The notes below the pieces were generated by a model, which ran no database searches, was not told the origin of the DNA, and worked only from the letters and a program-made list of their open reading frames with translations. Below are positions 1,967 to 34,370 of a stretch of 64,000 nt of DNA, one piece after another. Numbering within the stretch: position 1 is the stretch's first letter; each line of letters opens with the position of its first letter. The translations under genes were made by a program, and so were the position numbers. Origin of the DNA: Candidatus Saccharimonadota bacterium (GTDB lineage: Bacteria > Patescibacteriota > Saccharimonadia > Saccharimonadales > Saccharimonadaceae); contig JAFWHN010000001.1 in assembly GCA_017515205.1 (NCBI GenBank), positions 62,001 through 126,000 on the forward strand. The letters are read 5' to 3'.

Positions 1967-4090
1967 TTATTTTTTGGTTTTTCCTTCTATAAAATCTTTA
2001 ATTCGTGCAATTTCATCACGTAACGCTGCGGCTTTTTCAAATTCCAAATTTGCTGCTGCTAGCTGCATCTCAGACGACAACTGTTTGATCAGCGCCGGCA
2101 GTTCATCCTTTGGAATACGTTTAACGTCAAGTTTACTTTCCTTTTCTTTCTCTGGAATAATAGCGCGTAAACCTTTCGAAACTTCCTTTTGAATTGAATG
2201 TGGCGTAATATGATGTTTTGCATTATATTCTTTTTGTATTTCACGCCGGCGATTGGTCTCAGTAATTGCCTTTTCCATACTTTCCGTAATAAAATCGGCG
2301 TACATAATAACTTTGCCTTCCTCGTGCCGGGCAGCCCGCCCGATCGTCTGGATCAAAGCCGATTCGGAACGTAAGAACCCTTCTTTATCTGCATCTAGTA
2401 TCGCTACGAGCGATACTTCTGGTAAATCCAGTCCTTCGCGCAGTAAGTTAATTCCAACTAGCACATCATACACTCCTGATCTTAAATCTCGGATAATATC
2501 GCCACGCTCCAAAGTGTCCACATCAGAATGAATATAAGCCGTCTTTACGCCACGATCCTTTAAGTGATCAGTTAAATCTTCCGCCATCCGCTTAGTTAGA
2601 GTCGTAATCAAAGTCCTTTGACCCTTCGCGATGCGCTTATCAATCTCTTCCATTAGATCGTCAATTTGCCCCTCGCTTCCACGTACTTCAATTTCCGGAT
2701 CAAGTAGGCCAGTTGGACGAATTACTTGCTCAGCTGGTTTTGGTGAAACTTCTAATTCGTACTCACCTGGCGTAGCTGATACGTAGACTGCCTGATTAAT
2801 ATGTTTTTGGAATTCACCGTACGTTAAAGGCCTGTTATCTAGCGCCGATGGCAATCTAAAGCCATATTCCACTAGAGTTTCTTTGCGTGCATGGTCGCCG
2901 TTATACATACCTCTCACTTGTGGCAAAGTCATATGCGACTCATCTACAATCAATAAAAAGTCTTTCGGGAAGAAATCGAGTAGCGTAAATGGGGGCTCTC
3001 CAGGCTTGCGTCCTTCTAGGTGACGCGAATAATTCTCAATTCCCTTCACAAAACCAGTTTCCTTGAGCATTTCAAGATCATACTTAGTGCGCTGGGATAG
3101 TCTTTGTGCTTCCAAAAATTTATCGTGACTTTCAAAATATTTCAAACGTTCTTCATACTCTGCTCGAATCGTAATCAGGGCTTTTTCTAGCTGATTCATT
3201 GGCGTCGCATAGTGCGTATTTGGGAAAATGTGAATATGATCTGGTTTTTCTCGCACTTCTAATGTCAAAGGATCGACAATTTTGACGTCTTCTAAAGTAT
3301 CAAATCCAAATTCAAATCGATAGGCAAACTCACCGTTGGCCGGGAATAGGTCAATAGTATCACCCATCACGCGGAAGTTACCGCGTTCGAACGCAATATC
3401 GTTCCGGTGGTACTGCATATCCACTAGCCGCCGGATAAACTCGAGTTGAGACAGTTGGGAGTTTGAGGCCAGGGGGTTTGCGATATTACCTTCGAGGGCA
3501 TTTCGGAGTGCGGCAACGCGAGAATTAGCGCTGGCCGCCCGTGGCGACGGGCCGGCCGGACGCGTGTCCGAGGAGGTATTGTCGCAAACCCACTTACCAT
3601 CAATTTTCCAGATCGGTAGCGACATCTCAGTATAGTGCTCCGGCGAACCGATGCCATAGATGCATGACACCGATGCGACTACGATGCAATCTCGCCTTGT
3701 GAGCAGAGCCTCCGTGGTGCCGTGCCGCAGTCGGTCGATTTCGTCATTGATTGCTGAATCTTTTTCGATATATGTATCGGTCGAGGCAATATAAGCTTCT
3801 GGTTGATAATAATCAAAATAACTTACAAAATAATGGACTTCATTTTCTGGAAAGAAATCGCGGAACTCGGAATATAATTGTGCGGCTAGTGTTTTATTAT
3901 GTGCTAGGACTAGCGTTGGTCGCTGAGTTTTTTCAATAATGTTCGCCATGGTAAAAGTCTTGCCAGAACCTGTCACCCCAAGGAGCGTTTGCTCGTGCAC
4001 ACCACGATTAATCCCGTCTACGAGCTGTTTAATCGCAGCGGGCTGGTCGCCGGTCGGCTTGTACTTTGATACCAACTTGAATTTAGCCAT
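1967..4090 (-). CDS. uvrB: Excinuclease ABC subunit B with an in-frame palindromic-element insertion
   Basis: UvrB is the damage-verifying helicase-like subunit of nucleotide excision repair. The 707-residue protein has Walker A (GVTGSGKTF, residues 38-46), the beta-hairpin region [10 protein letters not shown], a DESH box, the helicase motif QTIGRAAR and a C-terminal UVR domain that binds UvrC. It is about 40 residues longer than usual. The extra sequence (about 157-212) sits between the conserved [12 protein letters not shown] and [13 protein letters not shown] blocks, where UvrB normally has a short link. Residues about 167-205 are encoded by a GC-rich inverted repeat related to one at 24.75 kb. 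The start has a TATAAT 7 nt upstream and is probably leaderless. Confidence 0.96.
3475..3590 (-). repeat. Palindromic element copy 1, in frame inside uvrB
   Basis: The 116-bp element is bounded by a perfect 9-bp inverted repeat (GGTTTGCGA at 3475-3483, TCGCAAACC at 3582-3590). Its centre is a hairpin on the plus strand: arm CTGGCCG (3531-3537), CCCGT, loop GGCG, ACGGG, a bulged C, then CGGCCGG (3553-3559). Blocks shared with the copy at 24.75 kb include CATTTCGGAG, CGAGAATTAG and GAGGTATT. It is far more GC-rich than the surrounding uvrB and adds about 39 codons without breaking the frame. Confidence 0.8.
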
Positions 4091-24749: not shown

Positions 24750-24866
24750 AAACAACAAAAAACACCTTATCGGGACATTTCGGAGGTTACGACCGAGAAT
24801 TAGGGCGCTTCGCCCGTGACGACGGGCCGAAGCGACCCGTGTCCCAATGAGGTATTTTTGTTGTTT
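24750..24866 (-). repeat. Palindromic element copy 2, directly after rpsG
   Basis: The 117-bp element is bounded by a perfect 12-bp inverted repeat (AAACAACAAAAA at 24750-24761, TTTTTGTTGTTT at 24855-24866) extending through ACCT and GGGACA blocks. Its central plus-strand hairpin is CGCTTCG (24806-24812), CCCGT, loop GACG, ACGGG, a bulged C, CGAAGCG (24828-24834). Its right end overlaps the rpsG stop codon. On the rpsG strand the hairpin ends in a T-rich run, so it may double as the rpsL-rpsG terminator. The rest of 24594-24749 holds only the gap promoter; I see no gene in it. Confidence 0.8.
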
Positions 24867-25341
24867 AACGTGCAAAGTGCGCGAAAGCACGGTTTGCTTC
24901 GGCCATGCGGTGACAATCTTCCTTCTTCTTAAAGGCAGCACCAGTTTCATTGTAAGCATCTACGATTTCGGCCTCAAGACGCTTCGCATAAGGCATGCCC
25001 TTACGAGCACGTGCTGATTGTACTAACCACGAAAACGCAAAATGAAGCTGTCGGTGTCCAGCAATTGGAAATGGAATTTGGTAGTTAGCACCACCAACCC
25101 GACGTGACTTCACTTCGAAATCCGGTGAAATGTTCGCAATTGCTTCTTCAAGTACTTCTACTGGATTCTCAGACTTTAATTTTTTCGCAGCTCCTTCAAT
25201 TGCGGCATAAACTGCACGCTCTGCAACTTGGCGCTTGCCATTGAGCATGGATTTGTTAATCAATCTTTGTACCAAAATTGATTGATATCGGCGATCAGGA
25301 TTTACTTTTCGCACCAATGATTTAGTAGTTTTACGCGGCAT
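24865..25341 (-). CDS. rpsG: Ribosomal protein uS7
   Basis: 158 residues with the S7 pattern: PDRRYQSILVQRLINKSMLNGKR, SRRVGGANYQIPF, FSWLVQSARARKGMPYAKRL and KKEDCHRMAEANRAFAHFAR. It starts immediately after the rpsL stop. EF-G and EF-Tu, which often follow in the str operon, are absent here; a palindromic element starts at the stop codon instead. Confidence 0.97.
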   Translation of the reverse strand: MPRKTTKSLVRKVNPDRRYQSILVQRLINKSMLNGKRQVAERAVYAAIEGAAKKLKSENPVEVLEEAIANISPDFEVKSRRVGGANYQIPFPIAGHRQLHFAFSWLVQSARARKGMPYAKRLEAEIVDAYNETGAAFKKKEDCHRMAEANRAFAHFAR

Positions 25342-33704: not shown

Positions 33705-34370
33705 CTAACTATTAGACTTGCCGGAGTGTTCCTCGCGCCATTTATCTATTTCGCCATGATTGCCCGAAAGTAGTATTTCTGGCACCTTCATTCCCCGAAA
33801 ATCGTATGGTTTAGTATACTGCGGATATTCTATATTATCGCCATCTGAAAATGACTCAATTTCAGCAGAGGTTTCTCCACCTAGTACCCCTGGTATTAAT
33901 CTAACAATCGAATCAATAATTATCAGCGCCGGTAGTTCCCCACCCGTCAAAACATATTTTCCCAGTGAAATTTTATAATCTACAATCGACAAAATCCTTT
34001 CATCGTATCCTTCATAATGTGGGCACAAGATGATATAATGTGAATTTTTATCTGAAGTAGAGGCAAACTTTCTCGCTAATTTTTGGTTCCAAATTTCTCC
34101 CGCTGGTGTAGGCAAAATCACCTTAGCGTCGGGGTCCTGCGCCTTTGCCGATTCAATTGCCGCAAAAACCGGTTCGCATCTGAGCAACATGCCATCACCA
34201 CCACCATAAGGCGTATCGTCTACGGACTTATGTGGCCCTAAACCAAAATCTCTTAAATTCACAAAATCAAATTCGGCCAAACCTTTTTCCGTGGCTTTCC
34301 ACATCATTGAAGCTTTTAAATATGGCTCTAAAGCTTCTTGAAAAAGAGTAATTACTGTGAATTTAATCAT
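33705..34370 (-). CDS. trmD: tRNA (guanine-37-N1)-methyltransferase TrmD
   Basis: 221 residues with the trefoil-knot SPOUT motifs: DDTPYGGGDGMLLR, CPHYEGYDERI, KYVLTGGELPALIIIDSIVRLIPGVLG. It makes m1G37, which prevents frameshifting. The usual rpsP-rimM-trmD-rplS context is missing; trmD stands alone. An extended -10 (TGGTATAAT) lies 9 nt before the ATG. Confidence 0.96.
   Translation of the reverse strand: MIKFTVITLFQEALEPYLKASMMWKATEKGLAEFDFVNLRDFGLGPHKSVDDTPYGGGDGMLLRCEPVFAAIESAKAQDPDAKVILPTPAGEIWNQKLARKFASTSDKNSHYIILCPHYEGYDERILSIVDYKISLGKYVLTGGELPALIIIDSIVRLIPGVLGGETSAEIESFSDGDNIEYPQYTKPYDFRGMKVPEILLSGNHGEIDKWREEHSGKSNS

Follow-up and report, generated by a model that had tools for sequence, protein, structure and literature searches.

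A family of dispersed, probably mobile palindromes lying mostly in frame within genes of Saccharibacteria

A palindromic element of about 117 nt is dispersed through the genomes of one Saccharibacteria genus and two sister genera, mostly inside genes and in frame. Its copies have a core in common and arms that are specific to each site, pair over a fixed length, enclose cores of either orientation and, in coding copies, carry mismatches that are biased with respect to the strand of the element. The reading that we favor, with modest confidence, is that of a family of mobile palindromes that enters mostly genes, where the frame is kept, and more rarely terminator regions between genes, by insertion of a core with fold-back copying of the flanking DNA, followed by template switching.

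Results

Two copies of the element in the window

The window, i.e., the whole stretch of 64,000 nucleotides that was analyzed, contains two related sites that the original prediction described as a dispersed palindromic element, and reading and aligning them bears out that description. Both copies contain the shared blocks CATTTCGGAG, CGAGAATTAG and GAGGTATT, and both form the hairpin that had been proposed, with a 7-bp arm, a bulged C, a 5-bp stem and a GNCG loop. The outer arms had been called perfectly self-complementary, which they are not, as bulges and G.T pairs are present. Also missed were the in-frame location of copy 1 within uvrB, the inversion of cores in place, and what we regard as the foremost property of the family, that the majority of its copies lie in frame in genes. 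The features are as follows.

3475..3590, + strand: copy 1, whole hairpin, within uvrB, a gene on the - strand (basis: alignment, folding, ORF and core model)
3475..3498, + strand: copy 1 5' arm, about 24 nt; the gene strand encodes ...GNIANP
3499..3565, + strand: copy 1 core, 67 nt, 90.3 bits with core model R1
3508..3519, + strand: copy 1 P2 hairpin, flanked by the invariant strands ATTTCGGA and GAGAATTA
3528..3563, + strand: copy 1 P3 hairpin, with 7-bp arm, bulged C, 5-bp stem and GGCG loop
3566..3590, + strand: copy 1 3' arm, the inverse complement of the 5' arm, starting at a conserved UvrB Trp codon (gene strand)
1967..4090, - strand: uvrB, reading through the insert, 707 aa; relatives have independent inserts in the same loop
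24750..24866, + strand: copy 2, whole hairpin, intergenic between rpsG and gap, the 3' arm touching the rpsG stop codon
24750..24775, + strand: copy 2 5' arm, with A-tract AAACAACAAAAA
24776..24840, + strand: copy 2 core, 65 nt, 79.4 bits
24803..24838, + strand: copy 2 P3 hairpin, CGCTTCG/CGAAGCG, with bulged C and GACG loop
24841..24866, + strand: copy 2 3' arm, with T-tract TTTTTGTTGTTT
24865..25341, - strand: rpsG (30S ribosomal protein S7); the element is at the same downstream spot in G159 and G100
33705..34370, - strand: trmD of this genome, insert-free, the empty version of a loop that is filled in many relatives

The ORF that hosts copy 1 is named UvrB by NCBIfam, with a profile match that is interrupted at the insert, and the gap gene beside copy 2 encodes a type I GAPDH. 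The + strands fold with energies of -74 (copy 1) and -62.5 kcal/mol (copy 2), with z values of -7.6 and -8.8, and no shuffled sequence equals either. The UvrB loop after GxW has received at least three independent inserts close together (window 1967-4090; L047, L048, L049 and L185), and in the L185 uvrB the remains of one element lie beside another element.

The core, its spread and its position in genes

We built a covariance model restricted to the core from 12 copies, deliberately excluding the arms; its E-values are rough, the best matches reaching 1e-26. With this model, 155 of the 174 genomes in the genus were found to carry the element. Further copies, on which the claim of a dispersed element depended, are present in this genome (11 by the core model, 11-14 overall) and in relatives, the maximum per genome being at least 29. 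Across the order, the element was found in 3 of 156 sampled genera, all three in one family. The named relatives of the clade are gut and rumen Saccharibacteria.

The core consists of 67 nt with two covarying hairpins and the invariant ATTTCGGAG...CGAGAATTAG. The compensatory changes noticed in the original prediction extend through the family: 97.3% of core pairs are paired in 12 copies against 80.8% after shuffling (score 0.43 against 0.13), and 98.0% against 81.4% in 77 distinct cores, a set biased toward well-paired cores because the higher-scoring copies were used. Both sets beat all 500 shuffles, and the larger also beats all slid controls; in it, 13 of 19 core pairs vary on both sides. 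Identical cores occur at different genes of one genome, e.g., TrmD, MnmA and TatD in G026. Clustering of cores within genomes is a weak trend only, with 114 of 1000 shuffles as low. No known family had been recognized for this core, and Rfam likewise gave no real match at the gathering score or at E up to 1, its one chance match falling far under threshold. A phage or virus origin was rejected, as two pattern matches in viral contigs reached only 12 bits with R1, which is chance.

One subfamily (L007, L044, L180, L182, L227, L228 and L176:919) has longer arms and a second conserved internal loop, with GGTGGC at its 5' side and GACAGGACC at its 3' side. Copies are dense in L181, L217 and L183, with four in one stretch of 5.5 kb, three in one of 10 kb, and two in one MnmA gene.

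We counted a copy as coding if the open frame around it ran on past both its ends and had a length of 150 codons or more. Among 125 distinct copies, 97 are intragenic, in frame and stop-free (61 run antisense and 36 sense to the gene, in fixed frames), the frame being kept in 97 of 97 under a definition that would class frame-breaking copies as non-coding. Within the scope of that definition, frame-keeping speaks against an intron or translational bypass element, for which removal or skipping of the insert would make the frame unimportant. Host genes include those for MnmA, a NifS/IscS-type cysteine desulfurase, TrmD, aminopeptidase N, UvrB, Obg, LepA and AlaRS, and from reading the translations we take further hosts to be TatD, LeuRS, LigA, UvrD, GatB, PriA, DnaX, Der, TruB, UvrC and PolA. 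Many of these are conserved housekeeping genes. The remaining 28 copies are intergenic or overlap gene ends.

Pairing, length and origin of the arms

The arms pair over about 25 bp in essentially all 125 copies, and arms taken from the same copy score 40.8 for pairing, compared with 13.1 for arms drawn from different copies. In most copies the paired stretch stops at 24-29 bp, with a drop in pairing near 27 bp; the median is 26 in coding and 25 in intergenic copies against 4 in mixed arms. Arm positions 1-7 beside the core have the consensus TCGGGG/CCCCGA, almost none remains past position 13, and each site has its own arm sequence outside the inner ~8-13 nt. An unpaired base at position 8-9 of the 5' arm recurs in 43 of the 125 copies, and our reading of this bulge is that it marks the junction of the element's own stem with a host-derived part. 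Outer arms of different genes share a 9-mer in 8 of 17,872 pairs, where 4.2 are expected, and in pairs of copies with identical cores the outer arms are unrelated, differing on average at 11.2 of 18 positions. It follows that the outer arms do not travel with the element, and carriage of the arms from donor to target was rejected. Direct repeats at the arm ends, which would mark a direct target duplication, are no longer than in mixed copies (3.75 against 3.82).

An arm can be matched to host sequence at TrmD and, most clearly, at MnmA. The empty MnmA gene of G100 reads CTAAAGGATGTTTTGATGCGGGGCGAGGCAAAGGATGTACTCGTGAGG, which holds both of the host stretches concerned and neither inverted copy, and two inserts about 25 bp apart keep opposite host flanks: L189 has kept the host AAGGATGTTTT / AAAGGATGTTTT on the left, with the inverse complement on the right, and L214 has kept the host GGACGTATTAGTCCGC on the right, with the inverse complement on the left. 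The insert-free TrmD loop is AREFAKDAHYI or similar in 19 genomes; in filled TrmD the host codons for AREFA form the left arm, and the loop is mostly longer by a net 31 aa, i.e., 93 nt, equal to the core plus one 26-nt arm. Flank copying is supported at some sites rather than proved at all, because net gains scatter from ~15 to 40 aa across genes and most empty loops are too divergent, assignment of the host arm by protein alignment at 63 sites giving a mean identity of 0.17 on both sides. A single insertion event was not seen, since no filled and empty pair at near identity was found within a gene. The original prediction had offered, as one possibility, a mechanism that copies the flank to the other side, and arm pairing, arm length and the MnmA sites all support it.

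Strand bias of arm mismatches

In coding copies, the isolated arm mismatches comprise 110 G.T and 24 A.C when read on the + strand of the element. The excess is found in both gene orientations (43:10 with the gene running with the element, 67:14 with the gene running against it) and by gene cluster (27 versus 2), and the G.T share is 0.82 against 0.55 in a mixed-arm control. Intergenic copies are without G.T bias (12:13), which counts against the reading that we favor. Because in most copies the mRNA corresponds to the opposite strand, an mRNA fold cannot explain the bias, which tracks the strand of the element rather than that of the gene, and mRNA structure was rejected as the selected form. 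The bias is instead pointing to a folded single DNA strand: either the + single strand folds and is selected or recognized, or the copied arm is made there with G.T errors.

The main rival to flank copying is that the arms were not copied at all, and that selection on the folded + strand, as DNA or RNA, made the opposite arm complementary step by step in the service of a hairpin-dependent function. Such selection would account for the surplus of G.T over A.C on the + strand of coding copies, for core pairs that vary on both sides yet remain paired, and for the recurrent bulge in the 5' arm. We nonetheless consider it unlikely: coding and intergenic copies have the same sharply defined arm length, arms on identical cores are unrelated, armless or half-armed young copies are absent from the 125, and an RNA function at antisense copies would require an antisense transcript.

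Inversion of the core in place

The close relatives G159 and G100 are 90-98% identical over aligned stretches, and three of their four orthologous elements have the core flipped between the same arms. One of the flipped elements lies inside Obg, where the frame is kept in both orientations. Across the genus, both orientations occur within the same gene in TrmD, MnmA, Obg, LigA and UvrD. The G159/G100 pair also shows a double change in the P3 stem, CCCGT..ACGGG versus CCCAT..ATGGG. Misassembly is an unlikely source of the inversions, because a typical read pair is longer than the element.

Template switching between inverted repeats homogenizes their arms and inverts the spacer, coding DNA included (PMC8604942). 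With the in-place inversion and the P3 double change of G159/G100, this lends some plausibility to an ordinary palindromic miniature repeat of the MITE or Rickettsia palindromic element (RPE) kind, whose arms have drifted and whose pairing is maintained only by template switching in replication, with nothing special occurring at insertion. That account seems improbable to us, as almost no outer-arm sequence is held in common even between copies with identical cores, and one arm consists of host codons at TrmD and MnmA. In the account that we prefer, flank copying at insertion, template switching would act afterwards.

Intergenic copies and the TrmD loop

Some intergenic copies probably serve as terminators, because A/T tracts are present in the outer arms of 16 of the 28 intergenic but only 5 of the 97 coding copies. 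A terminator scan was blank at copy 2, a result that carries no information because its range does not extend to loops of such length. Between tsf and frr, L052 has a plain terminator (3426-3500) and its near twin L053 has the element (3330-3500), in nearly identical surroundings. Both observations would suit a structured regulatory RNA or terminator that is retained by the host at useful places. As an explanation of the family this is very unlikely, since most copies are intragenic and in either orientation, their positions turn over between species, and the core matches no Rfam family.

The trmD loop also accommodates other, unrelated families of in-frame inserts, e.g., SRAASPRPVATGEARSSSPCQAPEAL, GEFEKICCRERSGALAQVSLPPSNFS and SRSMISDGEITERPSPVTTGARERSEKN (L251, L254, L255, L258-L260, L262, L263 and L265-L270). 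Because several unrelated families occupy the same loop, there seems to be a whole set of coding-insert families in the genus.

Candidates for a mobility gene

A REP-type or IS200/IS605 transposase had been named as a possible partner of the element. Recognition of a single-strand hairpin by a Y1 transposase would suit the + strand bias, but PF01797 occurs in only 8 of the 174 genomes of the genus, and neither in this one nor in most of the high-copy ones, leaving a REP/RAYT or IS200/IS605-type element as a scarcely credible explanation. The reverse transcriptase domain RVT_1 is present in 98 of the 174 genomes, but this genome, G061 and G103, with 11-16 copies each, gave no match to it. A genome may have as many as five such domains, most of them within ORFs of ~350-450 aa. 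Neither a Y1 transposase nor a reverse transcriptase is consistently linked to carriage of the element.

Discussion

We present a hypothetical model for the insertion of the element. What moves is probably the 67-nt core with ~7-8 bp of its own stem (TCGGGG...CCCCGA). At insertion, ~18 nt of the adjacent target DNA would be copied in inverted form to the other side, and core, own stem and copied flank would together make up a single hairpin with a fixed length near 117 nt. By the likeliest route, the core would enter as a folded single strand, its 5' stem base-paired with its 3' end, and the paired 3' end would prime synthesis on the adjoining host flank, by fold-back or template-switch synthesis. 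Template switching at the palindrome would then homogenize the arms and invert the core in place. Presumably the insert is translated and the host protein tolerates the added peptide in its loops, and a mobility factor presumably exists. It is possible, and we propose it only tentatively, that the family embodies a new, enzyme-driven mode of transposition, in which a folded single strand generates a fixed ~18-nt inverted duplicate of the target by self-primed fold-back synthesis, with in-frame insertions into essential genes and invertible cores.

How coding palindromes of the RPE type move has been a question since 2000. With the Saccharibacteria element, the phenomenon is seen in a second bacterial lineage, unrelated to the first, in very many copies and more than 150 genomes, and its empty sites, orientation flips and site-matched arms may expose the insertion mechanism. 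The element also illustrates how essential proteins can gain new loops in reduced genomes, and it offers a natural setting in which to follow the evolution of palindromes through template switching. We found no description of such elements in Saccharibacteria in the literature, and since coverage of that literature was incomplete, novelty rests partly on absence.

In RPE families, sequence is common to the whole palindrome. The RPE, reportedly described by Ogata et al. in 2000 and 2002, resemble the Saccharibacteria element in being palindromes of ~100-150 bp that are present in many copies and in frame in unrelated housekeeping genes, with several families per clade and a mobility protein that is not known. 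The RPE have been reviewed (PMC10969869), and the identity of their repeats is lost over time (PMC6649704). The Saccharibacteria element, in a different phylum, has only its core in common between copies, its arms are site-specific and still paired, and its cores flip in place; because sequence is not shared over the whole length, we do not file it as an RPE. Like MITEs and REP/BIME, it is small, transposase-free, dispersed and hairpin-forming, but the conserved terminal repeats and direct target duplications of MITEs were neither of them seen here. The coding palindromes of Nematomorpha mitochondria also have two arms that encode protein and are site-specific, and template switching has been proposed for them, although that work does not describe dispersed copies united by a common core (PMC6649704). 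Template switching at quasipalindromes likewise produces arm homogenization, double changes and spacer inversion (PMC8604942, PMC8794818); it is, however, a mutational process at existing repeats and explains neither the spread of the element nor its fixed arm length. Site-matched arms, seemingly copied from one flank, are unlike the build of the known small mobile repeats of bacteria.
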